From: Paramecium tetraurelia
Lineage: Eukaryota > Ciliophora > Oligohymenophorea > Peniculida > Parameciidae
NCBI RefSeq assembly: GCF_000165425.1
Contig: NW_001799462.1
Location: 62,001-126,000, forward strand
Direction: 5' to 3'
Length of the DNA: 64,000 bases
The notes below the pieces were generated by a model. It saw nothing but the letters and a program-made list of their open reading frames with translations, searched no databases and was not told where the DNA came from. The translations under genes were made by a program, and so were the position numbers. How positions within the stretch are numbered: the stretch's first letter is position 1; every line of letters begins with the position of its first letter. Below are positions 34,194 to 64,000 of the stretch, one piece after another.

Positions 34194-37100
34194 ATGATTT
34201 TAAGTTTATTGATTTTATAACAATACTTCCGATACACAAATACGAAGTGCAGTATTAAATTTACAATTTTAAGCTACTCTGAATGACGAGCACCATTTTG
34301 AATTGTCAATAGGGGAACGATTTGACTTAAACATGAATGACAATTTTATTGGTTCCAATTTGAGATTTTCCTTGGTGGGATCTCATAGCCGACAATTCAC
34401 AGTCTAACAACGCTTGCATTTTGTTGCAATACAACCCCTCATGGAAGATTATGTCATCATCAAATAATGGGGAGAACTATTAGCCTTATTAAGAGGAACT
34501 CAGCAACAATATTACATCCAATATGGAATGTGTGATTTTCAATAAGCCCCTGCTTTTGAAAACATAATTCAGCTATTGCCTCGAGGAAATTGCGTTGATC
34601 TTATCTAAGACACCCTTTCTTCGTTTGTAGTTTTATGTGTAGAATAAACTCTATATTATTTGCAATATGTCTAAGTGGATGGACAAATCCAAGAATTCCA
34701 GTATTAGATGAAGTAAAAACCAAAGAAGTTCATGATCAACATGGTAAATGGAGTCGTAATAGTCATCCAAGTGGCAGATGAGTGCATTATAGATACCTAC
34801 TACCAACAAAAGGCAGGAATGCAATTAAATGCATAAACATTATCATAATTGACGATGCAGCAAGTCGAAAACTTCTCCATCAATGATATTACTGTGAAAG
34901 CCGATTAGATTATTATTGCACATCAAATTAGTCACATGATCTATTTGACAATTCAAATTTAGAATGACTAACCTATTTTTACCCTAGTAAAATTGGGGAG
35001 ATTCTAGTTTGACCTCCTGAAAATTAGTGCTTACTTAGATAACTATCTAAATCTTATAGTCGTTGCCCTTATACCTGACAACAGATTGTACTTTATAGAA
35101 ACGAACAAACAATATTAATTAGATTCCTAAATCAATCTCAAAAAAGCTAATTTACAAGCATCTTCAACTTATTGTTCTATTCATGATGGAAAAAGCTTAA
35201 TTATTTATAAATTCAGTGATGGCTTAAAAACTTTAATGTTTTAAGAAGATCTTGATCTTATTTAATACATATTTAATCCAGATTTGAATGATTTGATAAT
35301 TGTTTAAGAAAGATAAATTAGTAGATTTATTTTATCGGATGGTTATTTAATTTTGATACCACCTAAAGAGATTATCAAGACTCCAGTGGAATTTTCGGTT
35401 GTGGCTAGTAGTGATTTAATGGAATGTGAAGCGAGAGTTTCTTATATTGTAACGAGCAGTGTCAATTCACAATTGCTTAAGCCTTATTCTTATCCTAATC
35501 CATATCCCAATATTATATTCTTTCCAAAATTCCCCTCCATTTATAGTTTGAATTAGGTTTCAATTTCAGGGCCAAATCAGAAAATGCTTGTAACTGTAAA
35601 AGAGAACGATTGGCAATTAATTAACATTATCACAGATTATAAAAAAGTTATACCAATTTCAGGATTGAATGAGAAACGATTAAAACTAGCAAGCATCAAC
35701 GTTGAAATTAATAAGCTGATTCCTACAAAGATCCACTTTATATTGCAATATTATCAAAACCAATAATTATATACTGAATTCTTATCGTGTGAATTCAACA
35801 AACAACAATTGAAGATTAACTGTGATAAAGAATACATAATAGATCTTGATAATGTCATAACCCAAGATTAAATATTTTATAGTTATGACCTTGAAGATAA
35901 TGAAGTATTCATCTATGTTGTAAATAAAAATGAAGTCATCATATACAAATGGTTTGTCAATCAATTGATTTTATAGAATAGAGTATAGTTAGCTAATGAG
36001 AGCAAGTAGCATATTTAGTCGTCGATCTCCTAGATAATTTAGGTGAATAATCTCTTGGTTATTCTGAGGGGGGAGGTTGTCTATCTAATTTAAATATTTG
36101 GAGATGATTAATTTAGAATAGATGAGGCATTTTTATAACAAAAGAACTATTTGACTGAGTTTAAACCTAGTTAAGTGAAAGTAAGTCAAATTTGGAATCT
36201 GATTTTTATTGTTAATGGAGGTGATATACTTGTGATCCAGTGTTATGAGATTTGCGATTTGGTGAATAAAATAGTGATATAGAATGCCATGAGTTTGTAG
36301 ATTTAGATTCAAATGGAGAAGGTATTGATTGTGTTGGCTGAGATTGAATCTGAATTGTCTTTAATGGAGTACCTGATAAAGGATCCTCATTATATAGTGT
36401 ATCAAAAGAAATTGTAAACTTATCACTTTTGGCTTTAAAAATAGATGTTGAATAATTATTAGGATGATGAATTTTATGTGTTTGCTTATAGTCCAGTGTT
36501 GAAACAACGAGTTATTTTGATATATAAGGTGTTTGTTGAATTGAGGGATTCCTTATTGACTATGATCAATGTAGGTGAGGATAACTAGGAGTCCTTGTGC
36601 TCAGTCAGTGGGATAAATCAAAAATTAATGTACATTCACATGGACAAATCAGATTTAATCTATTTACTAACAAATGATTTACGATCAACAATCAATGTTG
36701 ATAATAAATCAGATAGCTTGTTTATTCACTAATTGCAAGTGGAATCCTCTTTTTTCAATATCGATTATCCTCTCCAATAGAAATATCATTAGACCATTAA
36801 GTTCGTAGATTTAAAAACAATCATCTATAAGAATGTTGATCAAATTGAATTTAAAATAACAGAAGACATCTAAATACCCATAGACAACTCATTCTTCACT
36901 GGATTAATTACTAATTTAAGGGCTGAGAATGCACATTTGGATATTCAGAAATCTGTTCAATTGACTGAGAACAAACGATCCTTTAAATCAGATGTTATTA
37001 ATACTTGTCAAATTGATGAGATCACTGTGATCCTCACTCATAAAACCATTGAATTTATGTACTCTAATTTCCAAGACTATTTTGAATCCTTAGATATAAC

Positions 37101-38353
37101 CGATTTAAAGGCTGAACTTGGGAATGTGTTTTGCAGTTCTCACATCACCAAATTGATCGCTTTCAGGTATCTGAATATTACTGGTTAGTACATACAATTC
37201 ATCTAATGTACTTAACAGAAGTGTTCCAAACAAGGGAACCCTTAGTTGATGAAGGAGGATGAATACATTTTCTCATTGATGATTATCAATTCTACTTTGA
37301 TCACACTTAGCAAAGATACTAAATACAATTAAGCTTTGCTAAATGTCTATGATATCAAAAGGAACGAATTCTAGATTTCACTCTACCAAACTGAAAAGAT
37401 CGATAAGCAAAGAGCAAATCAGGACTTCAATATCAAGTACATCAGCATGCAATCCTACTAGGTGAATGGAATAATGATTTACAAACTATTTCTCACTGAA
37501 ATGAGTAATGGTCTATTGTATGTTGATATGGCATAAGAGAAGTATATGTAAATCAAATCCAATGTGATCAATCTCAACTTGCAAACTCTGTTGTAAAGCA
37601 ATGGGTTATTTGAAGTTGATGACTAAATCTATATAAGCACGTTGTCCACCTAAGATCCAAAAGACTTTCACATAGAGGGCTACACTGAATTTTATCTCCT
37701 TATAATCACAGCCAATTCCCTTCACTATGGATTGATTGTGCAATTCAAAGGGTCCAAATTATCTGAGACTTCTATCGCCTATCTGCTTCATACTCATTAA
37801 TTGTGGAATGTGGTAACCTTCTCTCAGATTAAGTAATCCTATTTGGCACTTGGATACATTGTGCCTGATAAGCAAGAATTGATGGTAGCCATCTACAAAA
37901 TACCAGCTAATATATCTACTAATTTGAAGTCCAGTCCTGTTTTGGTTCACGGAGCAATCAATATTCAACTAGACCGCAATCTAAATTAATTGATATTCTT
38001 ACTTGAAAATGAGGGATAGGATGTCCTCCTTTATTTTAAAGATAAGGATCCAAACATAATATATTAGGCCAAAATTTACAATAGTTCTTATCTGATTATC
38101 AATAGTAGTGTGAAAAATCATGAATTCACTTTGGTGGCTAGCAATTACTATTATGAGAATTCAATACAAATAGTAATTTTGAATTAGGTAAAGAAGGGGG
38201 GATTTGGCGTCGTAGTAAGATATTGATTATAAATTGTAGATGGTTCTTTTGATACTGGTTGGTTGCATCATAGTATTGGGTCTGCTGGCTTACTTGTTTT
38301 TTAGGATTCGCTCTAAGGACCAAGTAGTTAATACCATTACTTTGTTAGAATGA
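34194..38353 (+). CDS. Surface-array gene U: giant secreted/type I membrane protein, 1,370 aa
   Basis: Three exons: 34194-34251 (58 nt), 34274-38214, 38240-38353; introns 22 and 25 nt; exact multiple of three. Exon 1 encodes a signal peptide (MILSLLILQQYFRYTNTKC) and the first intron follows directly. The ectodomain of about 1,300 residues is beta-strand-rich, with many alternating hydrophobic/polar stretches and scattered Cys (for example CTQQKCSKQGN). The last intron lies immediately before a membrane helix (MVLLILVGCIIVLGLLAYLF), followed by a short tail RIRSKDQVVNTITLLE. No named domain was recognised; the strand pattern could be a beta-propeller or a series of beta-sandwich repeats. The ATG at 34033 upstream opens only a 55-codon frame and is not used. 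Gene V follows on the same strand with an identical exon layout. Confidence 0.82.
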
Positions 38354-38451
38354 ATTATTATATATATATACACACAAGAAATAAATGATTTATTTAAATC
38401 GATGACAACATAGTTCTAATAATGAGGGATGCTGATAAAATTATTATTATA

Positions 38452-41400
38452 ATGTTAAATTATTTGCTCCTGTTTGAATTAATAGTACAATCAATTTAAC
38501 TTAAATGCAGTAACTGATTGAATATCATTAGAGTCAATCAAATTACGCTCTATTGTTCCACTTTCGAAAGAATTGAAAAAGATTTAGGCCAATTGGTTTA
38601 AGGTGAGAATGTTGAATATTCCTTGAATGGAATTAGCGAATATTTCGATATTGTGCAAATTATGAATCCCCTAACAGAAGATTACACCGTTGAAGATTTG
38701 AGTATGAGTTAATTAAGAATTAGCAAATGTAACCTTCATTGATTTACACACAATGAAGAATGGGTTTTATCATGAAAATTCAAGAGCTCTACTGTTTAAA
38801 AAGTATTCAATCTATCAAGTACGTTATCCGACCATTGATCAAGTGTTCTACTCAACAATTCAAAAGTGTTAGTTTGTAAGAGTCATCAGAAATAATGTCA
38901 TCCTATTGGCTTCTGACACTAGATTGTGGATAGCAAAAAATAATGAATATTACTTTGTCGATGGCTAGATCTTAGATATCGAGGTTGAAAATGGTTTCAT
39001 ATTAGTAACTACTTCAAAAAAAGTTGTGATTCTCTATTATGATTATACCCTCAAAGACACTGGCACAGTCATTGATTCACGTCTCTTAAACAGTCTACTA
39101 GACACATACAACAACTATTCAATCATCTAAACCAAGTATGCTTTGAACGATCTCCTCCTATTGGATTCAACCAAAGGAGTAATTGCACTAAGAGTCAAAT
39201 CCATAAATGTATTCGAGTTCGATTCCATCTACTCAAGTCCATTAGAAGCCAATTACTACTCCTTTTCAGTACTCAAAGATCTCAATTCTTACATCTTAGC
39301 CATATCTTTTAATACAAACTAATTGATCGTATATAATCGGCACTAAATCGATCTACAATAATGGTCTATTCAAGATCAAGCTCTCCAGAAAACTAGGATG
39401 GAATTCATTGGAGAATTTGGCAGATAGCAATTCCTCTGCCTGTTTAATTCAACTTCTCTTTTGATACATCAAATCAATCCTTCCTATATAATCAAGACTA
39501 TCACCTTCGAAAGTCCCATGATCGTTACATTCAATGCTTACAAGAGTGAGATCTATTTGGTTCAAGAAACCCAACAACAATCCTTTTTTATTTCCACTGG
39601 ATTGCTTATCATGAAACTCAATAATCAAGCCAATTATGAATTATAAAGTTTATTATTAATCGCAACTGAATTAAATCAATGTGCAGTAACCATCAATTAT
39701 GTCATTTACAATTATTTGGATAACAAACTGTATAAGAAGAACAATCTATAACATCAAATCAAACAACTAATAAATTACCCAACTGATCCTTAAGTACCTA
39801 TTTTTTAAGAAATAGGAGTCTCTGGATCGAACATCAAGGCTCAAATTGAACTCCAGGACGAGAGCATTTCTTTGAAGCTTGGATACATGGAGGATGTCAA
39901 AATCAAAGGAATTGTCTGGTCAGATCTAAATGATCAACCCAATGATTCGGTCTATGTTGACATCTGCGAAGTAGACCAATATGTTTACTACTTGGTCCAA
40001 TCCAAAACACTCAAAGCCACCTTATATCAATGTTCTATCAGTAATCCATACAATGAATTGAACTGCTAAAAAGTTCATTAGTTTTATCCCAATAGAATTC
40101 TGAGCAAGGATTCCTTTCAATGGATCCATGACAATTATGTCATCTTTGGTTACATCTCAAAGTTCCAACACACTTTGGAACTTTACAAATTGAGTCAATC
40201 CATTGTCTAAGATATGTTCACTGTAGCTACAAGTCTAAAGGATGAGTAATCTGAAATAACGTCATTTACGTTATCCAAAACTCATGTATTTGTTGTTTAA
40301 TCAAGAAAATAATAAATAGATATCATATCAATAGTCTCTCAACAAGTAATTGATACCATAACAACATTTGATGTGCCCTCTTATCATTTCAATCCTAAGA
40401 CTGTTTAAATCCAATCGAATCTGTTGATCATTACTGGCAATCAGAATATCATAATTGGCTATTTTTTTAATTCCTTCAGATTATTGGATTGCATAACATT
40501 CTCAGATAGTGAGTCCCTCGCAGTTGGAGTAACTAATTATTCATTCTTTGTTGCTATAGATTACGGTTACAAACAAGAAATTAGAGAATATAGTACAAGG
40601 ATGTGGAAAATTAATCTACTAAAAATCATACCTTTATTTCATTACATTTTACACAATCCTTTTCAGATACTCTCTCAAATGAATTTAGTTCTTCTTAAAG
40701 CCTACACTCCAGTATTGTAATAAACTGTGTTATTAATCTATCAGCCTGAAGTTGAGTTGAGAGAGTGCCTAGTTACTAGTGCTCCTTTGGGTTGGTATGC
40801 AGAAAATGAATTGAACTTGGGAGTCACAGCCTTTCATTAATCTGGACTATTGATCCACGCAGGATCTTAGAAGTATTTTAAGAATTTCTTTGTGGCTAAG
40901 GACTTTTAGGCTGTAATAACTTCTAAATATGATTCAAATTACATTCACAGAAAGGAACTGAATATATCCTATCTTACAATAGATTCTCCCGGGGTCATTG
41001 AGTAAGTGTAAAATGTAACGTTTCTTAATTTGATGACTAATATTGAGGCTGTTTAAATTCGTGGTGAATTGTATTTGGAATCTAAGATAGTACAAATACC
41101 AAATGATTGGTTTAAGGGGTTGGTGATTGATTTTAAAATAGAATGCTAACAATGCAATGATTAAATAATACTGACACCGAAGGTTCATTAGATTTCAAAT
41201 GTTCACCATTATGAGGATATATTAGGTTATTGTTAATTAAACGAGACTCTCTAAGTGATTCTTACAGATACCAGTCTCATTTTTGTAGATCATCAGCATT
41301 ATGTGAAACATCAGCGTTTCTTCTTTGATTTTGAAAATTCATATACTCCATAGAACATCTGGTGCAGAGACACTATCATACTAATAACAGGGAGTGCTGA

Positions 41401-42568
41401 TGTATTTTGGACTTCGTTCATAGCAATGGTGATTAGGGAGGGAGATTCCTTTAGGTTGGTGGATTAGCCAGTGGTTATTAAAATATTTAAAAAGATATTG
41501 TAACTTGAGATTCTAGAACATTTCAATTTTATTCTTTTATAAGCAAATGATGAGGATGACCAATCAAATTTATGCACATGGCATATAAATTACGCTTCTC
41601 CCAATTTCCTGAGTTTCTCCAAGATGTCATGCATTGATAAGTCAAAACATCCAAACTTTTTGGTGAGGAGCTTTATCACCTATTCATTTGGAAACTTGGT
41701 AAGAGTGTTTATGAATGAATTAAATTTTGGGATCTATGTGTAAGATTTCCAATACTAAAACGATTTCATAAGGTCTTTGATTATTCTTAATGATGTGATT
41801 AGAATATCTCCCAAGAGCAATCTGGAAGCTTTGTTGGGCGAGAAAATAAACGAAGGGATTACGTATCATAAAATTTTAAAGTGTGGAGACGAGGCGAATA
41901 AGAATTACTAAATTTTCAATGTGATTCTGTTGACGAGAGAAATTGCTCATTTAATGATGATTGTTTAGTTTGAAGATGAATTATTTAAGGAAATCATAAT
42001 AACCAGATTGATTCAGAGGTATTCAGACTTTAAATTGATGTTTCAATCCTCAGTTGCTAAAGATTACTTAGCACTGGCTTACAAGAAAGAATCCACTCAT
42101 TAGTACTCCATTTGCTTATACAAATTAGATACTAAGTCTGATATCATCTTGTAATTTGGAGGAATTGAGATCGTAGAATCCCATAACTAATTCTTCTCCC
42201 TTCTCTATGATGAGAATGACCAACTATTACTTCAATTGTAATTATCCAACAAAAATTTGTCCCTGTATAAAGTTGAAGAATTTGCAACACTCACTTTCTT
42301 AGAAGAAGCTCACGAATAACAATTGGTGTTGACAGCTAGCAATCTAGTTTCGTCAGCCAGCATGATTGTCCAAGCGTACGAAATTGTACAGACATCTTCA
42401 ATGACGTAAGAATTTATGCTATGTATTAGGTACTGGATCTTACTTATACTTTTACTTCTCGCAATTACGATTCTGTCTTTAATGTTTTTTGTTATTTATT
42501 GGAAAAACCGGTAGAAGAAATAGAGAAAGAAAATGTCACTACAACAATAATCATTAATACTTAAATGA
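38452..42568 (+). CDS. Surface-array gene V: giant secreted/type I membrane protein, 1,348 aa
   Basis: Exons 38452-38509 (58 nt), 38534-38701, 38724-42405, 42430-42568; introns 24, 22, 24 nt; multiple of three. The signal peptide MLNYLLLFELIVQSIQLKC is on a 58-nt exon, as in U. The long ectodomain includes NDWFKGLVIDFKIEC then QQCND near residue 870, a motif shared in modified form by other array members. The last intron precedes the membrane helix (YWILLILLLLAITILSLMFF) and a basic tail (NRQKKQRKKMS). The first intron seems to end in GAG. The stop is 10 bp from the stop of convergent gene B. Same architecture and intron positions as U identify the two as tandem duplicates despite low sequence similarity. 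Cell-surface adhesion or receptor roles are possible but unproven. Confidence 0.82.
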
Positions 42569-42578
42569 GTTATATAAG

Positions 42579-45500: not shown

Positions 45501-46212
45501 CTTTCACTTTGTAATATTTGTTTATTATTCTGTAATTATCTTCTCCAATTTCAATATTTACATATTTAAACGCCTATTCCAATTCACTCTAACGCAGAAG
45601 AAACTCCGCATTAGGATCATCCAACGCGGTGAATAAATCAAATGGGTGTATTTGCTTAAACATAAACTCAGTCTTCAACCACTCTATTAATTTCACTCTC
45701 AAATTCTCATCCTTCTTCTCCTACTCCTCCATCTCCAATTACTTTTGCGTCGATAGTTAAAATTTACTCTATCGATTATTGGAAATTGGGTCTGGAGTTG
45801 AATCAGGAGAAAAGGAAGTAAAAGATGTCTGACTTACCTTTTATTCCTTTCCTTTAAAAGCCCGATGAGCATTGTTTAAAATTGAAATTCTTTGTCTTTT
45901 CTTTTTTGCTAAATCTTTTTTATTCTAATCTTGCTCTTATTCTTGACCTGGCTACACAACTTATTAAGACACTACATCTTGTTCCTGTTACATTTCTTAA
46001 TGTTCAATTAGTTCTTCATTTTGCTCACCATCTTAATGGCCTTTCTCCAAAGATTGATTTCGCGAATGCTCTTTGCTTAGAATTTCATTAGACTTATTAT
46101 CCTTTGGAGAATTCAAATTTTAAGATGACCCTTAAGAATTTAGCTTTGATTTCGAGTTTGACTGGGACTTATTCAGATGATCTGGAGATTATACTTCAAT
46201 CTCTTGTTACAT
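42579..46212 (-). CDS. Gene B: intact paralogue of gene A, EF-hand-like / C2-like protein, 1,194 aa
   Basis: Exons 46212-44054, 44027-43862, 43838-42579; introns 26 and 23 nt at the same positions as in gene A; exact multiple of three. Low-complexity Gln/Glu N-terminus, then helical regions with EF-hand-like segments (IYQTLDRERSGYINLEDFF) and conserved blocks HNLMTDYGNSS and YDYGGFEKFV. A C2-like domain follows (YKVKILSGEGIPSPEDKK, EENEDIWEFPSRNRSNGFF). The C-terminus has FSFNPYSPQEIFPPEV and ends EPYVEQIM. It lacks the Lys-Asp-Asn repeat of A. Calcium-regulated binding to membranes or cytoskeleton would fit EF-hand plus C2-like parts, but the canonical Ca-ligand residues are not obvious, so this is inference. 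It lies within the surface array, 29 bp downstream of gene W, with no room for a long promoter. Confidence 0.78.
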
Positions 46213-46241
46213 AATTTTATATATATATATATTTAAGAAAA

Positions 46242-49200
46242 TCAAACTTCTGTTAACAATTTCTATTTCCCTTACCTTCTTCTTTTCTTTTGGCAATATA
46301 TTATGACGGATATCCCCAAGATCACAAACACCACCACAATCACCAATATTATCCATACTTTAAAATGAGAAGGCTCAGGTTCAATCAATTCAATGTTCAA
46401 TCTTAAATTTGTTATAGCTTCTTGTTATGAATTCTTCAATAGAGTTTAAACATCTTCTTAGACTGAATCCATTTCAATGCAAAGTTAAGTGGATCTTCTC
46501 AAAATATGGTGTTCCAATTTGTCTTTGTTTTCTGCCGAACTCAATACATGTAACTACCCCTTATGCTAATAAACAAAGGATTAAACAGTTTTTTGATCTT
46601 AAAGGTTCTACGACTTTACATAGGCAATAGCTGACAAGGGTCCAGTTTTGTTAGTATCATCATTCAAATCATAAAACAATAATTCATGATTCTTTTCGGA
46701 CTAATAAACTAAAGCAAGTATATTTTCCCTCAGGAGTTAACTTTGGTATTCATTATTCAAACTCCAACTACCATATTACTGGTAGCTATTCTTATACTTA
46801 AAAATAGAGAGACTACACAACTCATTTGTTGAACAATCAACCTTATATTCATAGGCATATGAAATAGAATTATTAAAAGTTATAACAATTAAATTTTCAT
46901 TCATTACCAATCCAGTGCATTTGAAATCAAGAGGAATAAACATGCCTTATCCTTTTATACTAGCTGCTAAGTTAAATGTTTAGAAAAAATTCTTTTAAGT
47001 AGTTTAAGCAACATCATAAGCGATTAATTCAAATGAAGCGGATTCGCCTATGCAATAAAAATAATAAACATAATGCTTAATATGTTGAATCTCAATTGAC
47101 TATGGATATTAAAAGGGAAAAACTCTTAAAATAAGTTTAAATTCATTAAAATTTGTGGGATCATCTTTGGTATCATAAGCTATTACATAATTCAATATCC
47201 AAATAAAGAATCTATCCTAGTTTTAAAATGCTTTTTTGATGTAATAATTAAAAGTAATTGATCCAGTTAGCAATGAAAATTTAGAGTCTTTGTATTATAT
47301 TATTTTAACATGATACTATTGATTTTAGGTAGCTTAAACATAAATAAGATCTTTTTGGATATAAAGTATATTAATGAATGAGTATTGATTATCTAATTCG
47401 AATTCTGTAGTTTTAAAATCTGCTTTAGAAACTAAAACAATCTTATTCTTAAACAATTAAATCAAATTTTGATCATCAAATTGCATAATAGATTCACTAT
47501 TTTATAGAGAATCTTCTTATTTTACCAAAGTCTTTTATAATTTGACATCTCCACTTGGTTACTTTAAATCTATATCAAAGGCTTAACCACTATACCAAGA
47601 TTATCCTATATTAAAGCAATGAGCATTATCCCCATCTTTGACATATGTAAAATTCATTTCTTTCTCTGTACTGAATAAATCTACTCCTCGATTTATTAAT
47701 TAAATAGGAACCTCTTCAATGGTGGAGTAATAATCAGTATTAGAAATCTTTCCTTTTAATTTAATACCTTTATTGTAGACTTACTATTTTAATTAAGTAT
47801 TTATGGAAGTTCTTACGAAATAATTGCCGTCTATAAAATATATATAGAATTTTTATGAATTCGCTTCAGTCTCAGTAATGAAAACAAAATTATTTGAAGA
47901 TGATATTTGAGCAGATTGAGTATCTAAAATCATGAATTATGAGTTTAGACTTGTTTCATTAGCTTTGTAAATTAAAATTGCCTTCTTGGCAGTCTTCTCA
48001 TGAGTTCCTATTACGTATAGTTGTTCATTAAAATAATTGCTATCAAATAATGTAATATCGTTTTATGCATGATGATATAAACTATGACTTCTTTAAGAAT
48101 AAATATCCCCAATATTTTGAATATTATATGTGAGAATTCCATACAAATCCTATTATTTTTTCAAAATAGAAAAATGACCATTAGTAATTGCAACACTAAT
48201 AGGTGCTTGGCTCTCTAGTTGTATAAACCAGATTAATGTTAACTTTTGATATTAAATGCTATATAAAGACAATTTAACATTATCGTAGGCAAATAAAAGG
48301 TCCTACTTATACGGTGATGTAAAAATCTAATTCACATCCTTCAATCCTACTGAAAGCTTTTTCCATCCTTGTGTATTGATGCTATAAATTTCAACATCCT
48401 TCTCGATTAATATAAACAAATTGCTTCCATCAGTTGAAATAGTTTTTCCTTAAGTTTGTAACTCAATAATTTAAAATTCTTAGAATTATTTTTAATCAAA
48501 AGGTAAAAAATTGACTTTCACTTATTTATCATTCAAATTGGCAAAATAAAGTCCGTCTTTACTTATCCACCAAATTTGTTTTTGAGAATCTTCCAGCTTT
48601 GGAAAATTTATTTTTTGAAACAAAATATTGCACCCAAAACCCTATTCTGGATGATTTTCACACTTGTAACCTTCTATTTCGAGGTTCTATTTTTGTTGAA
48701 TCAAGTACGCGTATTTTGAATCAAGATCTGAAATCGCCTTTCTGTAAATAACATCCGTTGAGTCTAAATTAGTCTGAATATCATCTTTCTTGTTTTTCAC
48801 CTCTATTTTTAATATGTCGCTATTATAAAATTCAAATTTGAGATTTGGTCCCGTACATGCAGGTTAGAATTTAGCTGTTTATTCATCCAAATTCACTCCG
48901 TATGCAAATAAGGCTGATGATGATTGAGTCAAGTACATTTTTAATGTGTCTATTGGAACTACTCTATAGTAAATAGTAACATAGCACTTAGGCAAATTAT
49001 ATTCTTCTGCAATTTGAACCTAACTATACTCTTCTTAAAGTTAATCGGATCTAAATCTTAAATAATAATCACTATTAATTGTGTAGCGATAGATGTCAGT
49101 ATCATCCAAGGCTAAGATGCTGTCTAAATTTGGATTTGAAATTAGTTTATACTTTGATTAATCCAATAACATTGAATAAAGCTTTTCAAGTTTCTAGTTA

Positions 49201-50207
49201 TAAAGTACAAGGCTATCTGATCTTGAAAGTAAAATATAATTTTGTGTCAAATAAACACTATTTTTTTCTTCTAAAGTGATACTAGCCATATATTCTTGGG
49301 ATGTTTTAGACTTAAAATAAAGATTTTATTCTTGGATAACTACTAATTGATTAGATTCGATATCAAAATCATAAGCTATTGCATTTTGAGTTTTTGTATC
49401 TATATTGTTAATCAAAACCCATTAATCTTCTTATCTGTGGTATTCAATTATTATGAGTTCCCCTTGAGAATTCAATATACTAATTTATCCATTTGAGTGA
49501 GTTTTAAAATCTCTTATTTCTAACTTAAAGGTGTCTTTTTTTAACAATTAAATTAGTGTGGCCTAATTTAGAATCTTAAGTAATTGCACAGTATTTTCTT
49601 CATAAATGTATAATTCTAACTCATTTACTGTGCTTCTTAAAATGTAATTGTCCATTTAATCTAATTTTCTCTGTTAATTCTTGGCTTTTTATATAGGAAT
49701 ATAAGTGTCTTATCCAATTGAGAAGTAATCTTAGTCTCCCTTTTGGCAATCAACAATAAAGATAGAATCGACTTAGACTAAATCATAGCAAATTGAATTA
49801 GGTTAGTCTACTCTTTCTGTTACTGAATTAATAGATGGTAAAGTATTGTAAATATTTGAATTAAATTCCACTTAATATGATTCCTTAAGTTATACTAAAA
49901 TTGCCATTGAATGTAGTGGGTCACGACTGTTTTTTGTTTTATAAAGCTTATATGATACTACCTTACTATCTTATAAAGTGTTAGCTTTTAACTTCTCCGT
50001 TTATTCTATCGGCTTAATGATAGCGAATTTATCATCATCGCTATACAAGGTTATTTTATTGTATTGTTTAAGTTTGAAAATTGAGCCTAACTACAGGTTG
50101 ATAACTTCATTTGGAGTTGAAATGATTTGCATAGCTTCATTTTGCAAATATGAGCAGGCATTTACAAGGATTGTGATCAAGCTTAAAAAACAATAGATTT
50201 TTTTCAT
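46242..50207 (-). CDS. Surface-array gene W: giant secreted/type I membrane protein, 1,321 aa
   Basis: Single open frame from ATG 50207 to TGA 46244-46242 with no intron required; exact multiple of three. Signal peptide MKKIYCFLSLITILVNAC, beta-rich ectodomain of about 1,250 residues, then FKVWIILVIVVVFVILGISV as membrane helix and a strongly basic tail (CQKKRRRQGKQ). The ectodomain carries QSWYSGQAFDIDLKQPSGD near residue 870. Immediately after it lies the tract that is nearly identical to gene X. Closest relative in the window is X: same intron-free structure, the membrane-proximal QxLLKN segment and a late RRS...C motif. Unlike U and V it has no intron before the membrane helix, so the array contains at least two subfamilies. 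Confidence 0.83.
47250..47610. repeat. High-identity tract shared with 51812-52168 (copy in gene W)
   Basis: Over about 240 bp of core only some nine or ten bases differ from the copy in gene X, roughly 96% by eye, while flanking gene sequence is clearly less similar. It encodes ESIMQFDDQNLIQLFKNK and neighbouring residues. Confidence 0.8.
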
Positions 50208-50773: not shown

Positions 50774-53700
50774 TCATGGAATCGTTTCATACTAATCATC
50801 AGATACCTTCTTTTTCTTACAATACCAAATCGTGATTCCAATTCCACCCAACAGAATAACACAACCAATAATTGTTAAGGTTGCCCACAATGGGAATCCT
50901 TTCTTAACATCAGAATCTGGATCTGGACCTGGTGGATTAGGGGGCATATTTGGTGATATTTTCACTAGCACATTAATTGTTGATTCTTGATAATAATTTT
51001 TTAACAAAAATATTACGTTTTGTGTAACTGAATCTTTTTCTGTACAGATCTAAGGAGATCTTCTTAATATATAGTGTTGTAATTTAACTTCATTATCTAC
51101 TGAAGTCAACAAATGTAATTACTCATTAGAACTATAAACGAATGAAATCGTTGGCCTTTATTTAGATTTAGATAAAAAGTGAGCAATTGCCAATTTTGGT
51201 CCAATTTTATTATTCTAACTTTTAAGATCATAGAGCAAAACATCATAACCATCATCTAATTGATAAATTATAGACAAGATGTTTTCATTTAAATAGCTAC
51301 TAGGATATTTTGTATCTATAACTGAATCGCCATATTACTGATATTCAGATATTAAGTTTAACTCTATAATATCACAAATATTCTATTCCTAACATTTAGT
51401 AACCAAGCCAAATTTATAGGATGGAGTTCCAGAAATAACAACCACAAGTTCATTGTTTGCAAAGAATGAATTTCTGCAAATTTAGTTTTAAGGATCATAG
51501 AGTAATTTCTCACTTAAAACATTCCGAATATCTATTAGAGATTGGTAAGGACCGTTTTAGGTTTAAGTTATTTAAAAGCTCTATAGCAATAATAAGCAGC
51601 TCTCATTCAAAAACAAGATCTAATAAACATCATTGCTTTAGACATATAAAATTTCCATAGAACCATCATAAGGGGGAATGCTAATATTTTGAACAAAAGC
51701 ATATTTTTGTAAATTTGATAGTTCATCATTTGTGTTATAAATTTATACTTTCAAATCCACCCAAATAAAGAAATATTTATTAAGCTAGCTAACTTTTTTT
51801 ATTTATGCATTAAAAGTAATTGATCCCGTTAGTAATGAGAATTTAGAGTCTTTGTATTATATTATTTTAAGATGATACTATTGATTTTAGGTAGCTTAGA
51901 CATAAATAAGATCTTTTTGGATATAAAGTACGTTAATGAATGAGTATTTATTATCTAATTCGAATTCTGTAGTTTTAAAATCTGCTTTAGAAACTAAAAC
52001 AATCTTATTCTTAAACAATTAAATCAAATTCTGATCATCAAATTGCATAATAGATTCACTATATTCAATAGAATTTTCTTATTTTACCAAAGTCTTTTAT
52101 AATTGAACATCTCCACTTGGTTATTTTAAATCTATATCAAGAGCTTACCCACTATACCATGATTATCCTAAATCGAAACAATGACCATTTTCCCCAGCTT
52201 TCTCATATTTAAAATTAAATTCATTTTCTACAACAAATAAATCTATTCCTCTATTTATTACTGAAATTGGAAGCTCTTTAATTTCTTAGGTTTTTTCAGA
52301 ATTAAAGACTTTTGCGTTTAATTTTATTATTTCACAATTCTTAATTTATTTATACTTTTTATCTACTTCAATGCTAATAGAAGATGAATCTTTCTAAATA
52401 ATGTATTATGATAGCATTTAAAAGTTAGCATTAGTAATAAATAATGTTTATTCATTAGAGGAAATTTAGCTGCTTGCTAATATAGAATATTCTATGAACT
52501 ATGAATTTATTGCAATTTGATCTAATCTGTAAACAAGCAATACGCGATCTTCATTTTTTTATGCCTCCAAATAAATAAAATTGGAGTTAGAATTACAGCC
52601 TAGACAAAGCTTCAATTGAGTGTAACCTGAAAGGTCTAATTCTTTTGTAATGTATGCATGTTTGAGAGATTGATAGTCATACACAAATGCTTGATATTGA
52701 GTATCTCTTTTTGTAAGTAACAAAAAGTGATTCTCAGAAACTCCAATTTCGACATCTTCATAATCTTTTAAAGAAGTAAACCAAAGCAACTTTGAATTAT
52801 CCGAAATATCAAAGAGATTTAAGGTTTTCTTCTCATAAATCCAAATTCTATCTGAGTTTGCAGATGTAAAGATTTTTTCAGCTGAATGACGAAATACTAA
52901 CCTTTATTTACCAATAATTATCTAATATACAAGCACTTCCTAATCCACCATTATTAATAAATACGAAAGACTTTGCTTGATTTCCTTAATGTTACTATTC
53001 AAAGTTAAGGTTGTAAGAAGAGATATTTGGAATAGATCATTACAATTACAATAGAGTTCAACATTTTTCTCCTTTCCTATTGCTAAGTAGGTATAAAACT
53101 TTGCAAACCATGTTTAAAGAGGGGAATCCTATAATTTGACAAATTCGTGTGTCTTTATAAATGTCCTACACTAAAATTATTTGTCTGCTAAACTGCACAG
53201 ATATCCTGTTATTTTTAAATCTTTATCTTATTCGATAAAACTTGTTTATCCAGCTTCAGGGATAATTTTACGATAAATCACATCCTTTGGATCACCTGCA
53301 TTCAGAATTTCAACCTTTTTGCTTCTACTAAATGAAACCGTTCCAAATTCATTAGGAGTGAACTCTATCTTAATATTTTGTCCAGCGAATGGTTAAGTAA
53401 ATTACAATTATGATTGTTGGTCTAACACGAAACCACCTTTAAAAAAACTATTTGTAACTGTTAGTTATTAATAAATGTCCTTGGAAGCCTTCTCAACAAC
53501 CTTATAATAGCACCAGACTAAACATAAATTATATGAAGTATGCTAATAGATGTTTAGCAATTAATCTTCATTAATTAATTAATTCGATTAAAATCTCAAT
53601 ATCTAATCGCCTTCATGATTTATTGTATACGCATAAAAGTTTTAGAGATCAAACAATAAAAATTAATCAGCAGCTGGATATGAATTCAAAAAGCCTTAAT

Positions 53701-54751
53701 TTTTGATATCAACGCTTTATCGCTCTTTTAAATTCAAATTCAAAATTTATAAAGATTTTTAATTCTATATAATAATATTGTTTTAGGACAAACTCACTCT
53801 GCTAGTTTGTTTAAAGTTCAAGTCTTCTTATTAAGTCCAAGCTGAAATCTAACGAAGGTATATATCTTTTTCTGAAATTATGACTAATTACTAATACTTC
53901 CAAGAATAATCATAAGCATAAGGAAGAAATGTTGGAGTTTACAAAAATTCATACAATTCCCATTGTTTTTATTAGATCATGTATTTGAGACATATAAATT
54001 GTCCATTCTAATTCAAAATAGTAATTTATTAGTTGGTATGAAATTTAAAATCTAAAATTAGAAGATCAATATTCTCATCCTTAGTTATTTTTTTAACTTG
54101 CTCTTTATCTAGAGTACTCAATAAGACTAATTCATTATCCTGTAATTGATATAACTCTAATGAATAATATAAATTTCTTAAAACTAAGTTATCTAATTAA
54201 TCGAGTTTCCTTTGTTATCTTTAAGAATTTATAATTGTCATGAATTTCACTTAGTCTTTATTAAGTAGAGCAAAATAATCACCTTCCACATTGTTACATT
54301 CAATAACATACAATTAATTTACTTAGAGTGCATCGTAACAAATTGAAGCGTCTTTAAGATTTACTTATTAAACGACATCAATTTCTGGTGTGTTTTCAAA
54401 CATTACAGAATTATATTCTATAAAATACTTATTTTGTGCTTTGCTCAAAATAGTTATTTAATTTGTTATATCTAGATATCCTGAACTTTTATATAATTTT
54501 TAAGCTATCACCTCTCTTGGTTCTTAAAAATTATATTGACTTTATTGTATTAAACTCAATGGAGCAGAGATAGAGAAAAATTCTGATAACGGAGAGAGAG
54601 TGAATTATTTCTTATTTTTATCTCGAAAAATGTCACCAAGCTTGATATCAATTCTTTCTCCAGGCGTAGCTGTAATATAGAATGTATTGTTAGCCAATAC
54701 GGAACATCCGTAAGACATTTAGGTTAGCGTCAATAGAATAATGAACATCAT
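50774..54751 (-). CDS. Surface-array gene X: giant secreted/type I membrane protein, 1,325 aa
   Basis: Single open frame, ATG 54751 (a second ATG follows directly) to TGA 50776-50774; exact multiple of three, no introns. Signal peptide MMFIILLTLTQMSYGC, then TPGERIDIKLGDIFRDKNKK and a long beta-rich ectodomain containing QSWYSGQALDIDLKQPSGD. A Pro/Asp-rich stalk (NMPPNPPGPDPDSD) precedes the membrane helix (PLWATLTIIGCVILLGGIGI) and a short tail YCKKKKVSDDQYETIP. Sister of W. The stalk is specific to X. The tail Tyr in QYETIP might be a sorting or phosphorylation site; that is speculation. Preceded by the longest spacer of the window. Confidence 0.83.
51812..52168. repeat. High-identity tract shared with 47250-47610 (copy in gene X)
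   Basis: Partner of the tract in gene W, same orientation, 4.56 kb apart. The boundaries fall inside coding sequence: on the left similarity ends at the TAAAAGTAATTGATC block, on the right it fades after the block encoding QSWYSGQA. Confidence 0.8.
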
Positions 54752-55903
54752 TTAATTATTTTAAAAATATGAGTTTTGGAATAAATTATATTAAATTTCT
54801 GACAAGTTTTGAGTCATTAAATAATATCGATTACCTCATTCATAATTTATGATAAAATTAATAATCTTGAAATATATACATTTCAATTAAATTGTTACAT
54901 CATCGACCTAAGATGTTTGTTTAAACCTGATTATTCTTACACTACTCATTAATTAATGCATAATCAATAATTTGGTTGGTTTAAAAATCTCCTATTGAAA
55001 TACTTTTTAGATGTAATTTTGTGCATTTTATTATACAATTATTCTAAAACTTGTTCGAAGAATGATTCTGACTAAAATACATTACATAATTTTTGTTTAT
55101 TCAACTTTTTAATATTCGAATATTTCAATGTTGTTATTATGTTTCTTTTTCTTAATCATATAATCAAATTTTATGGTTACTGACCTTAGGTACAACCCTT
55201 AAGATATAAATTACTTAAAATGCAGGAATTTATCAACTCTTCAGCAAACCATTTTTATAATAATAAATAAAACAGTAATTTTGAGATAAATTATTTAGAG
55301 AATAGATAAGACACTATAAATACCATAAGACAGCATTATAAATGTTGATCAAATCTATTTCAAATAGGGAATTGAACAAATATAATGGTAATTATTGCTT
55401 TATTTAAATTATTTTCTTTTATACTAAACATTCGTTTAAACCCAAAAGGTAAAACAAAATAAAATAATATAAAATAATGTTTTTGAGAGGGACTATAAAT
55501 ATTGAATTTTAATTAATTATTATCAAATGTTATGAAATAGATATTAAAATCTTAAGAAAAATTAAAATTTATAAAAGTGTTGCCTATTAATAGGAAAACA
55601 TATCTTCATTCAGAAGGAATAGAGTGGTAGAAATCAGTCATGTAAACTATTTATTCATATTCGATATTTATTTATATAAAAACAGATTGATTATAATCGA
55701 TGACACGTATGAATACATCACAAATGATTCTTTGAAAGGCAAAATAATAATAAGCAATTAAACGAACGATACAAATAATAGTTTTATAAATATTAATTCA
55801 CAATGATTTTTGGAAATCTCAATTAAGTTGGAAAAAGTAAAAAATTGAATAACCTAAATGATATAAGTCATAAAATTTATAATAATATATTTTTAATAAA
55901 AAA
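54752..55903. other. Longest gene-free spacer (about 1.15 kb) between genes X and Y
   Basis: Extremely AT-rich. I found no frame with coding-like composition, no tRNA-like cloverleaf and no repeat. For a genome this compact the length is unusual; it contains the promoter of X and could hide a non-coding RNA or a decayed gene. Confidence 0.45.
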
Positions 55904-58900
55904 TCATTAAATGGCTTTATATGATCTTCTTCTCTTACGATGCTTGTTTATACATATATGGATTGACACACATATGATTATACCTGCTAGAAGTACTCCC
56001 AAAACAACTATCAAAAGTATAAAGAATAATTTCATTTCTTAATCAGGAGGCGGACATGGTATCAATGTTAGATTTATTCCCAATTACACTTATTTATAGG
56101 GATTCACTGCTATCAAACTCACTGTGTTATTCTTTAATTCTGATGCATTCTTTACAACAATTCTTGCATCTGAATCAATTGTGTAAATTTACAGACTTCT
56201 TTCATCATATGCATTTATCAATAATTAATACTTTCCAAATTGACTTTTCCTTAATACAAAATTGGAGGTTACCAGCAAATCATAATCAGATTATTTTAAT
56301 CCTGCTTTGCATATGCCTGCATTATTTCTTATATCACTATTCTAATCAATTTCATAGAGACAAAAGTAATTTTTGTTCTCATATTTAAACAATTACAATA
56401 GATAATCATCAACAACACTAATGGATCTCATTTTTAATATATTACCCAATTTCAAAAACACTTAGATTATCTGTATCCTAAAATTCCCTCTCTGATATTC
56501 AAGGAAGATTTAATAGCTTTCATTAATCTGATCAACTAAAATCAATTTGCAAGAGTTAATCCCCTCTTTAAAGATCTATATCTTTATGAATCTATTTTCT
56601 AAAGGCTCTACTAATTTTTCTTGGCGAAATGGTAATTCCAAATATTCATATTTTGAAATACTTGCCTGATCCTTCGTCAATATCATTTTTAATAAAATTA
56701 TACCAAAATGGAACTCAGCCAAAATCAAGCACCCTTCATTATCAGAGATTTTCATTACATCAAAAGAAGTCACATTAAAACTTTAATGAAAATAATCTTT
56801 ATTGATTATCAAGTCATATGGTTTTATAGAAAAATCTTTGTTATTAATTTCCAAAGAGTAAAAATATAGAGTTGGAAATTCTGTCAAACTCTCTGTTAAG
56901 ATTATTTGTACATTATTTAGGAAGGACATTTCTTTGATGATTCTTCTGTCATAAAACTCCATTTTCCCCATAAATTTGCAATTTTACTTTTCTTAATCCT
57001 TCCAACAATAATAATACTTCAATATTGGTTTTTAAGCTGCTACATTTTCATACAGAACAACTAGGATATAATCTGTTAATAAAAACAATTTTGTTGCAAC
57101 ATAATTATTTTATTCACTTTACAATTCAATTTGATTTTCTATTTCACCAAAATTATTGATAAATTGCAAATATTGTTTCGTTCCTGTTAATTCAGATAAA
57201 ATTAGAAGAAAATTTTCATTGAAATTGATGAATTGCTATATTGATTTTGATTGGATCTTTTTATTGGATTTTTAGAATTGATTCATCAAGTAGATTTAAC
57301 CACTGTCATTATCAGTCGTACACAAAATACAAGATAATTTATATTAAATTCTTTGACCCTAGATCCAATTGTCCTTTATTTTGATCATCGAAACTTCTTA
57401 GCATTCCTCAAACTCAAAATCTATGTTCTCCTTTATCCATTGCATCTCCAATTACATGTCTACAACCGTAATCTCCTTAGAGTACACCCTCTTTAAACTA
57501 TAATAGTCATTCCACTCTTATTAAGACAAAATCAAAACGGATTAAAAGTGTGTAGGATCAGTCAAATAATTGATATAGAGTCTGGGTTACTCAAAATAAA
57601 GATAACTATACACTTATCTCTTATATATAAACTAAATGACTGTATCGTAAATCCCTGCAACACAATAATTCAATTCATCTTCAAAGTAGTCGAAAGTATC
57701 AATGACTGTCAATAGGGAGTTCCTTTGATATTCATTAATTTAGTAAACCAAAATTACAGTAGTTTAAGTTTGCACAGAATATGCAGTAACCAAAATTAAG
57801 TTCTTTTAAGGGTTGGAAGCCAATTAAAGCTATTTTGGCAATTAGTAGTAGTATAAGGGGAGTTTCCTTAAGAGAGTTACTGAGTTCAAATTGTGAATAA
57901 GATATTGTAAAATACCCTGTTCTGTAACTGTTTTAAAGACAACCACGAGAGTAGATCTGAATATTGATAAGAGTAATTGGACATTTTGTTGGTCGGTCAC
58001 TTGGATCTGAGAGATGACATTAAATTCATTGATATAATGTCCTATTATGATTATGTTATTGCATTTGATAAATATAAGATTCTTGTTAAAGGTATTACTA
58101 ATGTAGACCTTTTAGGCATTATTTAGATTTGATATTGTATCAATTTAAGTTTTCTTAGATAATGAGTATACTTGGATCTCATTCATGCCACTAATAAGTA
58201 CGAATACAAATTGAGAACTGATTTCAAAATCAGTGATTTAAGTTTTCTCATTTTGCAAAGAAGTTTTGATTTGAAAAATTTGAATGATCTTGGTATCACC
58301 GACTCTATATATTGTGATTACATGATTATTCTAGGTCTTTATGCCTATGTATGAATCATACATTCCTACTTCTGTCCACGCTATATTGTCTTCAACCAAT
58401 TTTATTAGTGGGTAGAAGGTGATCTTTTATGAACACTTCTGTTCTAATTCATTCATTTAACACACATAAATGAAAGCACTCAAGTTTTCAATTTACACCA
58501 AGTATTAATTAAGACCCAAATTGTTATTGATGAGACTAAATATTACATTTTTCTAATCAAATTAGCTGATTCCTGTAATAGTCATAGGAGATAATGAGAG
58601 AAATTTCATATCTATCTTCTTCTTCTTTTAATCATTAGATACTGTTATTTGTTATTGAACATTTGGGCCATTAGTAATTCTGGGCCAAGTGTAGTAGGAT
58701 TTGGGATAGGGAGGATAGTAAAATATGCTTTATTTATAAAAAGTACTTTAAAAGTTTGTATGTATCTTTGCATCTAATTTGTCATAAATAGTTAGAACAA
58801 TATTTACATAACAACTAGTACATTAGTTGTCTACTAATTTGAAATACTATTAATTTTCCTATTTTTAAATTTGTTTTTGAAACATCAAAATACCAGAACT

Positions 58901-60116
58901 AATTTCATAGAATTCTGCTTTATTTCTATGAAATAAAATATAGAGGTCGAAATTTGGATTTGCAATGAAGATTTCTTTTTAAATCTGGAATTTATCAACT
59001 AGTTCATCATCATTTAAAATAATAAGTTCTGTATCTGAATTAATCAGGTAATATTTTGGAGTTGTTTGCACATTGCAAATGCCCAAAGTAAAGTCGACCT
59101 TCTCAAATGTTCTTACCACATTATCATATCTCCCATTTTTTAGGACTCTCAAACTCATCTAATTTTTAGATACAAATCCGAACACTATAAGTTCCTCTTA
59201 CTTTCTGATTGAAAAACTATAGTATTCTGTTATATATAATGAGGTAGTTATTAATTTTGCCTATGTGAAATTGCCTTTATTATCCTGGATTAACTTGATT
59301 GGCCCCATTTTATAATCTAAAACAAACACATTATTCGAATAAACTTGAACGTCAATTACAGAGAAATATTTGAGTTCATTTTAAAATAGTTCCGAGAGTT
59401 TTTTTTTATCCAAATAGTAAGGGGTTTCTATAATTTAGTAGGAATCAATGAGGAAGACGTTAATGATTGATTGTATGCTCATGGTTTCTTCTGTGTGTGC
59501 TGGAGTATAGATTAATAGATATGTGATTGATTTGTCTCTATAAATTGCCAAATTATAAGTGCTCCTTTGCTCCGTCAATTTTGAATGTGCATGTAAAATG
59601 GTTCCACTCTTATTAATAATTTATAGCAATATTTCATCATTATCTTGACAAACAACCACAAAATTATTTTAATCCAAATAATCGAAATCTGTACAAACAT
59701 GATAGAGTGGCAATTATCCAAATCCTTCATCATTTATTATGTATATATGAAGTCCTGAGGAGTCTCTTCCCAATAAACTATACTCATTCAACCAGAAGTC
59801 TCCTTTTCTATATGATCTAGCCTTGATTGTTTCTTGAATCTCTACAACTATGCTTGAATTTCATACAATAAGGAAAATTTTTCTAATCATAAATATCGTT
59901 CGGCTATTACAATTTGAAGTATGTCCCACTCCTATCTCCTTCCAATCTAAATTTTGTCATCTCTCCTTCAATTAATTCATCCTTTATTTCCCAATACATA
60001 TTTTCATATGTAGAAATACTGATTTCCAATTCACTTTTCAATATGTCTAATGGATTTCTAAAATAATTACTGCATGATTATATGTGTCTCAGGATTATTG
60101 AAATTAATAATAACAT
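55904..60116 (-). CDS. Surface-array gene Y: giant secreted/type I membrane protein, 1,395 aa
   Basis: Exons 60116-59867 and 59841-55904, one 25-nt intron; exact multiple of three. The preferred start gives a signal peptide MLLLISIILRHIQSC; an upstream in-frame ATG at 60158 would add 14 polar residues and is less likely for a secreted protein. The ectodomain is beta-rich with few Cys. A CPPPDQ stalk leads into the membrane helix (MKLFFILLIVVLGVLLAGII) and a basic tail with HRKRRRSYKAI. The intron position (about residue 84) differs from U and V, and overall similarity to the other members is low, so Y is a more distant relative defined mainly by architecture and position. Confidence 0.8.
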
Positions 60117-60656
60117 TAATAATTCTTAAATATTTGAAGAATGTAAATTTTTCTTCATATTAACATATAGAATTAATTTATTTTTATTACTAAAAGGCTT
60201 TCAATCAGAATTTATACAAGTTTCTTTTATGTTTTATGCAAATACCGAAAATGATATAAAAATATATTTTAAATATTGAGGGAGGGTTTCATCATCTTTA
60301 TAAGTGTGTGCACTCCAGCTAGTTGAGCCTGATTGAAAAGTAATCGAATTCTATCTTAAAATGAAGGTTCTTTAGGATTACTGATGATTCATAAAAAAAT
60401 TAAGAATAATAACAGTTCATATGCTATTTTAAAACTAAAAAGATTATACAAAAATAAGCTTGAAATTTTGAATTAAGATTCATTATTTTAAATAGTCTAA
60501 TTTCAGAGTATAAGTATATAATATTATATAGATGGATATTGAAATTATCAAGTTTGATAAATTATTACCTAAAATGATTGTTAAATAATCACCAAACCTG
60601 ATATATAATTAATTTGCAAATTATTTATTTGATTTATTAATAACTCAATGGGTTTT
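60117..60656. other. Intergenic spacer between genes Y and Z
   Basis: About 540 bp of AT-rich DNA without a recognisable gene; promoter of Y and 3' end of Z. Confidence 0.5.
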
Positions 60657-63600
60657 TCACCAAAACACATCTAGAACATTGTCCAAAAATGACTTCTCTT
60701 CCTCAATTTCTTCAGCTTTAAATTGTCTAAGCAATACTAAGCCTGTGTCTTAAGTGAAAGCATTAACGAGGGTAAGTGAAACAAATTATTGATTTAAATC
60801 ACCACCAACGTTATAGACATAAAGTTGATAAGTTGGATTCAAATAATATGTTTGTAACAAGTTCTCATTGATGTCAACATTTCTGATGATGTTAGCATAG
60901 AGTCTTGGCTAGAAATGATAAATAAAATAAATTTACGAAACCAATGTTCTTGGGAATATAGGCTAAGAAATCGTTAACTTGAGGATATCCATATTTGGAT
61001 TGGGTTCCTCCGACTAATTTAATCAAAGGTACTCCTAGGATTGGTTCTTTTGGTAACAAATAGGATGCTAACAATAATTAACTGTTATCAGTATATGCAA
61101 TGATAGCATAATCATTACCGACTGTGGCCTTATTCAATGCGGTCCAAGTGGAATATTGATTTAGGAGATAGATCACATTTTGGTAAGTCAAGGGGAGACC
61201 AGTAGAAACTGATTTGGCATCGAAGGTCAATAGAATACCATAATGAGCTGAGGTGTCAGTTGTGACGAGGACTCTGAGTTTGAGAGATTGTTCTGTTGAT
61301 GAGTATACGGGAGCTGACAATTCCAAGACTTAGTAGAATGAGCTGGATGATGAAACAAATTGACCTTGGTTGATGAATGTGTAAAGATTCAATGAAGTGT
61401 ACTTGGTTTACCATGTGATAACTCCGAAAGTGCTTATAGAGGCATCAACTGAATATAAGTTTTACTTGGCATCAACAATAAGGACTTTGAGGTAATTTGT
61501 AATTCCAACTTTGAAGGGAGCAATGTAGAAACTGCTGAAATAACTGGATTGATTTCCAAAGAAGGCTTTGTCAAATATTTGTTGTAAATCGAATGTGACT
61601 TATTGGGAACTAGCAGTCCATTTGTAAACATTGAGTGTTCCTTCATAGTTTCTGGGTCTTTGAGGATTAGAATTCAAAACGAAGACGTAATTTCCACTGA
61701 TAGCGAGTTAGGCAACAGTGAAGATTCCATCGATGGTTTGGATGGTTCCGAATTGATGGCATTCAAGTTATCCAGTAGTTGAGCATTTAGCAATGTGGAA
61801 TACCTTTTAGTTATTGAGTTGACAAGTGGCAAAGATGTAGACACCATCTTCAGTGGCAACAATGTGATCGCATGAATGGGATTAAGTGGTTGAAAGGGAG
61901 ATGGAGTAACTGGTTTCTTCTTTGTTTTCACTATCAGCAATCAAGACTCTGAGGGTTTGTTAGTTGGCTAGATAAATAGTTCTTTATCCTTTGTATGGGG
62001 CAGCGTCGATGATGTGATATCCATTGAAGGAACCTGAATCCATTTATTAGACAGTTTGAATTGGTTTGACATAAGAATCACATTGGTCGCAATCAATGTC
62101 TAAGGAGACAGCTTGTCCATCGAACCAATCGGAAACAAGGTCAATGTTTTATTCAGTTTGAGTAGCATTCAAGGGTCTGTAATCAAGAACATTCTGTTCA
62201 ATTCTTATGGTGATTTGAGTATTGATAAGGTTGATAACTTAATAATAGGTGATGGGTGTGATGTCATTGTAATTGTTGATTTGGAATTTGATAGTGTAGA
62301 CAGAAAAGTATGTAGATTAGTCATAATTTGGTTGGATTGTTAGAACAGGTTAGTCGAAATAGGAATATACTTTTTATAAGGTACCACTGTTAACATAGAA
62401 TACCATTTGACTTGATCCAGCTGTTGACATCATAATGGATGTACCATCAGCTATTTTACTGCCCAATGGAATGGCTTTGAGTAAGGAGTCTCTTAACAAC
62501 TTACCTGGGCCATAGACTAAGACAACAGTTTGAGCACTCTTACTATCATAAGCTCTAACAAAGAGCACACCAGTGTCTGAACAGAAATCAGTCTAAAGTG
62601 GAGTTTAGATTGTGTACCAGTACAATGGCACAGTTTTCATGAGATGGATGGAATTCAAATTCTAAAGATCGTATTCTTGAATCAGATTTTGAGTGGCTGA
62701 TTTTAATATAATGAAAAAGCTCTCTAATCCAACTGCCACATCTATTGATCCTTTGCTTAGAGTGATTACTTTGACAATTGTGAATTCAGCATGATAATCA
62801 GCAACAATAACATTATCGTCGTTGGTTATGAAGAGGAGGTAAGAATTGTGGACTCTGTTTCCGAAGATTCTTTAAGGATTCCATGAACCTGTGAATCCTC
62901 TGTATCTGAGCATGACTTCAGTTACTGAATATTCCAATTCAAATGGACTGTAAGTAGATCGTATATCGATTTGTTTTTTGTTTCCCAAAATAAAGTAGAA
63001 TTTATCTTTCAAGACAGTGACAGCTGTGATTTTATTAAGAGTCTCAGCTGGATATGAAATGCTATCGACAACACTGGTTCCATTAATACCACTAACTCTA
63101 ATGGTAGCCGAATAATCGTTGTCCAAAACAAGGTGGTAAATGTTGAAACCTTAATACCACCAAATGAAGTTGTTCATATTTAATTAGGTTGATACGTCGA
63201 AATTTTAATATTGCTTGCATTCTGATCTGGCTTTGAATTTGTCTCTGATGTAACATTGATAGATTGTTGTAGTCTTGTTTGTTGATTATAAGAGGAGAGC
63301 ATAACGTTCATCCTTTGCATCCAATACCAATACATCAGAATAAATCACTGAAGATGGATTTGGTAAACTAATAGATTCAAGAAGCATCTCTTGTAATTGA
63401 ACAATCTTGGCAGTCACTGTTGTGGCATCCTTTTGTGATAACAACTAAAGATAATTCAGATTTGGTCCAGAGGCAAGTGGATCAACATTGAATGGTGCAG
63501 GAATATCATACAAAAGACTTGGAAGTTACAATTCCTCTGTTGGTTAGACTGTATAATCTAAGGCATTGAACACTTTGAAGTTTATTGTCACCTTGCATTA

Positions 63601-64000
63601 GGTTGAAAATGAATCTGTGGCTACCAAAGTAAATGATTATAAAGATGATGTTGTTGTTGATGTGCTTGGGAATCTTAATAGACCATGTGTAAGTGAATAT
63701 CTTCTTGAATCTACTTAAGTGATGGAAATCAATTCAGTTTCATATGGATTAATGATGTATCCCTTGGCTCCTTCAATGACTTCCTTGTGGATGAAATCTT
63801 CATGTTCAGTACTGAACAAGTATGTGACACCCTTCTGTTAGATTATCAAAAATTATTATGAAATAACTAAGGTAGCTGGATAGGCTGCTGTGAATTCCAA
63901 AATGTATGTATTTACTGGTACCTTACCTTCAACAATTTGAATGTAATCATTGTACATGATGGCGATGACTTCCTTGACTGTTCCATCTTCTTGTAATAAG
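60657..64000 (-). CDS. Surface-array gene Z: large secreted protein, N-terminus outside window (1,104 aa visible)
   Basis: Open from the right edge to TGA 60659-60657 with one 28-nt intron (60936-60909); the visible part is an exact number of codons. It is beta-rich and has SDWFDGQAVSLDIDC with DQCDS, clearly related to the motif in V and W/X. Pairs of Cys recur (CDHIV...FATC, CSTTGQLECH). No membrane helix is visible at the C-terminus, which ends in an acidic segment (KAEEIEEEKSFLDNVL, DVFW). Codon choice differs sharply from its neighbours: ATC, TTC, GCC, ACC, AAG and GTC are frequent, the pattern of highly expressed Paramecium genes. It is probably an abundant secreted or peripherally attached surface component; the truncated N-terminus prevents a check for a signal peptide. 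Confidence 0.8.

Follow-up and report, generated by a model that had tools for sequence, protein, structure and literature searches.

A multigene family of giant, mostly predicted single-pass proteins in Paramecium tetraurelia: possible sorting or endocytic receptors

The question raised by this locus is whether a row of giant genes in Paramecium tetraurelia belongs to one family and, if so, what its products might do. The window analysed here is the whole 64,000-nucleotide stretch at positions 62001-126000 of contig C184, in a genome of 69 Mb, and its genes were read with genetic code 6. As the first-pass annotation of this DNA had proposed, six open reading frames (ORFs), each longer than 1,000 residues, are present at 34.2-64.0 kb; they are called U, V, W, X, Y and Z, and their proteins have about 1,320-1,433 amino acids (aa). 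The array of six is correct for the window, but Z overruns its end and is followed by a seventh member, AA. These genes form a single and apparently undescribed family of giant, mostly predicted single-pass proteins. From their sequences, a structure model and analogy, it may tentatively be proposed, at somewhat less than even chances, that they are sorting or endocytic cargo receptors.

The evidence for one family comes from profile comparisons, in which the array genes are homologous along nearly their whole length. With hhalign, the X/W clade matches the AA clade with E 1.7e-42 over 1,275 columns, and Y/V/U match these two clades as well (E 4.6e-63 and E 1.5e-27); matches between the three sub-groups extend over 1,145-1,275 columns, much more than a single motif. 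The opposite explanation, i.e., unrelated beta-rich proteins that are alike by composition, can appeal to the fact that X is only 13-17% identical to U, V, Y, Z and AA in pairwise protein comparisons, but it is refuted by the controls: reversed or column-shuffled partners (n = 12) gave E 0.11-0.95, as against genuine matches of more than 1,100 columns. Besides, when AA, V and L034 serve as queries against their own genome, the matches extend across the sub-group boundaries. This explanation is considered practically impossible.

Homology had initially been proposed from a shared motif, W[FY]xGxxxD[IF], ascribed to V, W, X and Z. The strict motif is found three times (V, W and X) and not elsewhere in the window ORFs of at least 100 aa (52,898 residues in all), while its chance expectation is 0.002 per set (shuffles of the seven family proteins). 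Its specificity in the window is thus upheld, although not its presence in Z, which reads WFDGQAVSL at this site; Y, U and AA are looser than Z.

The absence of a recognised family, also claimed beforehand, is borne out: no Pfam family exceeds its cut-off in the six window proteins or in 15 members of the family alignment, which yield only weak, sub-threshold matches from E 0.015. Among 5.8 billion sequences, protein searches matched 25, namely three of the window's own proteins and 22 from Paramecium species; such searches need shared 5-residue words, and one of them scored the best 7,994 candidates, so that distant relatives could be missed. The 22 homologues beyond the window's own carry the words "transmembrane", "uncharacterized" or "unnamed" in their name fields.

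Regarding architecture, the first-pass annotation had described five proteins with a signal peptide, one membrane helix and a short tail, and few cysteines. A single predicted C-terminal membrane helix plus a short tail is indeed present in five of the six (U, V, W, X and Y). Z, alone among the seven array proteins, has no visible membrane helix, and it is probably secreted. By eye, signal peptides are apparent in W, X, Y, Z and AA; that of U is doubtful, and in V a 5' signal exon was looked for and not found, nor was a signal peptide. Cysteines are few, as stated: 13-22 in the 1,321-1,433 residues of U, W, X, Y and Z, and 18 in V.

The proposal of a constant architecture within one multigene family agrees with the profiles that join the sub-groups. 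AlphaFold models of X, computed in two pieces (pLDDT 84-85), display three beta-propellers and a stalk, after which come a single membrane helix and the short tail. On the minus strand, the predicted propellers correspond to (i) 53588..54565 (residues 49-374 of the first model); (ii) 52364..53287 (residues 475-782 of the first model); and (iii) 51038..52174 (residues 82-460 of the second model), with approximately seven blades each according to a strand list read by eye. The membrane helix and the tail, which ends in YETIP, lie at 50774..50890 on the minus strand (membrane-helix prediction and second model). As X is the protein that was folded, the three-propeller fold of the other members is inferred from homology.

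The short tails provide the main clue to function. A dileucine or YxxPhi-like motif, defined as [LIM][LI] or Yxx[LIMFV] within the last nine residues, occurs in 12 of 15 orthologue groups, compared to a mean of 3.4 for shuffled tails (0 of 5000 shuffles reach 12). Further tails, obtained by a splice search of 19 loci (11 without a tail and eight candidates, leaving six new ones after exclusions), carry the motif in five of six cases, one of the six loci (L027) being close to the already counted P0020. The excluded candidates were the L029 tail, which resembles no relative, and the L021 tail, from the AA group already counted as motif-less. Adaptor protein (AP) mu-subunit domains give 20 matches on nine contigs of the genome, 17 of them over the cut-off, and Tetrahymena mucocysts use the sortilin Sor4p and AP-3, according to the available text of the source (PMC12752500). 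Taken together, tail motifs, AP mu subunits and the Tetrahymena precedent lead to the sorting-receptor reading. Cargo would be bound by the ectodomain with its three predicted propellers, AP clathrin adaptors would recognise the short tail, and the route, by analogy with Sor4p and AP-3, might be endolysosomal or lead to the trichocysts.

Several observations weigh against this reading. The motif definition was fixed after the first tails had been seen, and the baseline consists of shuffled tails and ectodomain 9-mers rather than of the tails of other Paramecium membrane proteins. Ectodomain 9-mers satisfy the definition in 35% of cases (10,769/30,521) and, because the groups are related, a count over eight clades drawn by eye leaves five or six with the motif, a modest excess over that 35%. 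The motif is absent in AA and its relatives, in the P0024/P0025 pair, in P0018 and in L036, and the lack of a visible membrane helix in Z counts here as well. Finally, the genome already possesses sortilins (25 PF15902 matches on 15 contigs).

The same tail motifs are compatible with internalisation from the cell surface. The proteins could then be surface phagocytic or endocytic receptors for food bacteria or particles, with a number of genes that reflects the variety of ligands, an explanation that would suit large predicted ectodomains and at least 37 loci. No known lectin or adhesion domain exceeds the Pfam cut-off, and selection also speaks against it: five ohnologue or close pairs show dN/dS values of 0.09-0.20 at dS 0.46-1.72, i.e., they are under purifying selection, not diversification. 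Three of the eight pairs computed were set aside for large or infinite dS or for low identity (0.14 at dS 3.35; infinite dS; and W-X, 0.42 at 37% identity). Food receptors are regarded as a rather unlikely explanation, and the earlier description of the family as rapidly evolving is not supported by these five pairs.

The propellers themselves might instead serve as scaffolds, the proteins being structural or docking components of cortical secretory organelles (trichocysts). Propellers act as scaffolds in many of the listed structures, RCC1 is a propeller, and the Paramecium exocytosis protein Nd6p reportedly contains RCC1-like domains, as the title of a cited reference has it. But the main text of a paper on the Tetrahymena docking complex (PMC9159632) does not mention propellers, and a scaffold leaves the tail motifs unexplained; this possibility is rated as quite improbable.

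The size of the family exceeds that of the array by far. In its own genome, 33 merged blocks on 16 contigs amount to at least 37 loci, a lower bound from the queries X, AA, V and L034, in which three multi-gene blocks were split by hand and two loci (C52 and C174) are based on matches of less than 800 nucleotides (nt). Seven loci are in the array, four at C184:168630-184545, eight on C79, and eighteen are scattered. The four on C184 constitute a second, separate family array on the same contig, with a counterpart at C79:42543-63088.

In a FastTree tree of 50 sequences, including fragments (midpoint root, read without support values), the array genes are spread over a number of deeply branching clades (X/W; Y; U and V; Z; AA) and, in consequence, the array looks old, not the product of a recent burst. 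Orthologues of array genes are located on contigs of the same size in P. octaurelia (X and W) and P. pentaurelia (V, W and an X-like gene), which suggests conserved linkage in both species.

Within this apparently old array, one segment of W and X departs from the general divergence. The X segment (51842..52159, minus strand; codons 865-970, with limits chosen by the analyst) starts with WYSGQ and matches 47280..47597 of W, also on the minus strand. At the DNA level, W and X are 53% identical overall, while their best 60-codon window reaches 97% and their best 100-codon window 95%; all other 60-codon windows, in the 36 pairs of nine family genes, are at or below 78%. W/X identity is already 0.70-0.88 in the 40-80 codons upstream of the segment.

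Over X residues 865-970, X and W of P. tetraurelia share 97/106 residues and those of P. octaurelia 102/106, whereas comparison between these two species yields 95/106 for X-X and 91/106 for W-W. The margin of paralogue over orthologue identity is small in P. tetraurelia, and shared species-specific substitutions back conversion. In the flank (residues 400-840), the order is reversed: 129/436 for X-W and 381/441 for X-X. Apparently, gene conversion copied a tract of about 100 codons between W and X, and did so independently in each of these two species. In the corresponding P. sonneborni pair, paralogue identity does not exceed orthologue identity (69/106 both). The X-like P0004 of P. pentaurelia is the same as the W-like P0008 from the segment to the end (105/106, then 265/265), which would reflect either a conversion of greater length or an error in the assembly or the gene model. 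As the segment starts at WYSGQ, conversion accounts in part for the motif being nearly identical in W and X.

These elements can be combined into a broader proposal, viewed as rather doubtful: a second, sortilin-independent receptor set, with dozens of three-propeller cargo receptors that would bear interchangeable AP-adaptor signals, and in which the segment of about 100 residues that opens the third propeller would be repeatedly copied between neighbours in separate species, staying alike while the rest diverges.

At the level of gene models, W (46242..50207; 1321 aa) and X (50774..54751; 1325 aa) are single-exon genes on the minus strand. Y (55904..60158, minus strand; 1411 aa) has one intron of 19 nt at 59848-59866, and Z (60650..64000, continuing to ~64986 beyond the window, minus strand; 1433 aa) has one of 28 nt at 60909-60936. 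U (34194..38354, plus strand; 1370 aa as modelled) has introns at 34252-34273 and 38215-38239; the former is doubtful, since joining the signal peptide to the body requires this 22-nt intron with an unusual AAG acceptor. At its C-terminus, U has a membrane helix and a tail ending in NTITLLE. For V (38505..42568, plus strand), the start is the ATG of the annotated orthologues P0022 and P0023 (P. pentaurelia and P. sonneborni), which share the beginning MQVNQI; its introns comprise one of 22 nt after ATGCA, one at 38702-38723 and a probable third at ~42406-42429 (by eye against P0022).

The seventh member, AA (~65117-69749, plus strand, just beyond the window end), has a broken frame near 66466 (L009 ~3466), as revealed by comparison with its intact relative P0017; the break is either an assembly fault or the mark of a young pseudogene. 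The deposited P. tetraurelia model P0015 (996 aa) represents only part of AA 3' of the frame break and is 100% identical to the AA-encoded protein, with 90% of the query covered.

Instead of the one foreign gene announced within the array, two minus-strand non-family ORFs separate V from W: 42579-43838, and 44008 to ~46212 (44008-46356 in the ORF list). Neither has a Pfam match, the second having been scanned as 44011-46197. A DENN-domain gene is located 5' of U (window 31701-33254) and, downstream of the array, L010:3-4040 holds a large gene with C2 domains, which we take to be ferlin-like.

If the sorting-receptor reading is correct, a large receptor family would be added to the ciliate endolysosomal or trichocyst route, where the receptor described, in the available text of the literature, is sortilin; dozens of genes would also become open to silencing tests. 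In any case, whatever the function, an annotation gap is filled and the W/X pair would provide a clear example of gene conversion that stays, for the most part, within a single segment of the protein.

As for known systems, the mating-type proteins MTA and MTB of Tetrahymena and mtA of Paramecium are likewise giant ciliate membrane proteins with a large N-terminal ectodomain, and a role of the present family in mating, self-recognition or other cell-cell contact, as suggested at first, would be consistent with the signal peptide, the single membrane helix and the tandem array of diverged paralogues. Nevertheless, in the available text of the source (PMC10901506), Tetrahymena MTA and MTB possess a Cys-rich GFR domain together with five membrane helices, and Paramecium mtA, here compared by description only, is called MTA/B-like. 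The giant family differs from them in having one predicted helix (U to Y; none visible in Z), few cysteines and no GFR domain over the Pfam cut-off. Besides, the motifs in its tails are more suggestive of endocytosis or of sorting inside the cell, and a role in mating or other cell-cell contact is disfavoured as improbable.

The family resembles the surface (immobilisation) antigens of Paramecium in that both are large extracytoplasmic proteins of a multigene family. Those antigens are Cys-rich, periodic and GPI-anchored, in contrast to the 13-22 cysteines in more than 1,300 residues and the membrane helix of five of the six window proteins, which also lack matches to the Pfam surface-antigen domain. 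The animal receptors Sevenless and LRP5/6, like the giant family as predicted, place several extracellular propellers outside one membrane helix; Sevenless appears in the Foldseek results with a TM-score of 0.18 over the query and 10% identity, and no kinase or EGF modules exceed the Pfam cut-off in the giant family.

Sortilin/Vps10, represented by Tetrahymena Sor4p, is the system that would work alike: a signal peptide, an ectodomain built on a beta-propeller, a single membrane helix and sorting motifs in a short tail. No PF15902 match occurs in the six window proteins or the 15 family-alignment members, and all 25 matches in the genome lie outside the family loci. While sortilin has one propeller, of ten blades, with a Cys-rich module after it, the giant family would carry three tandem propellers, as predicted by the models of X.
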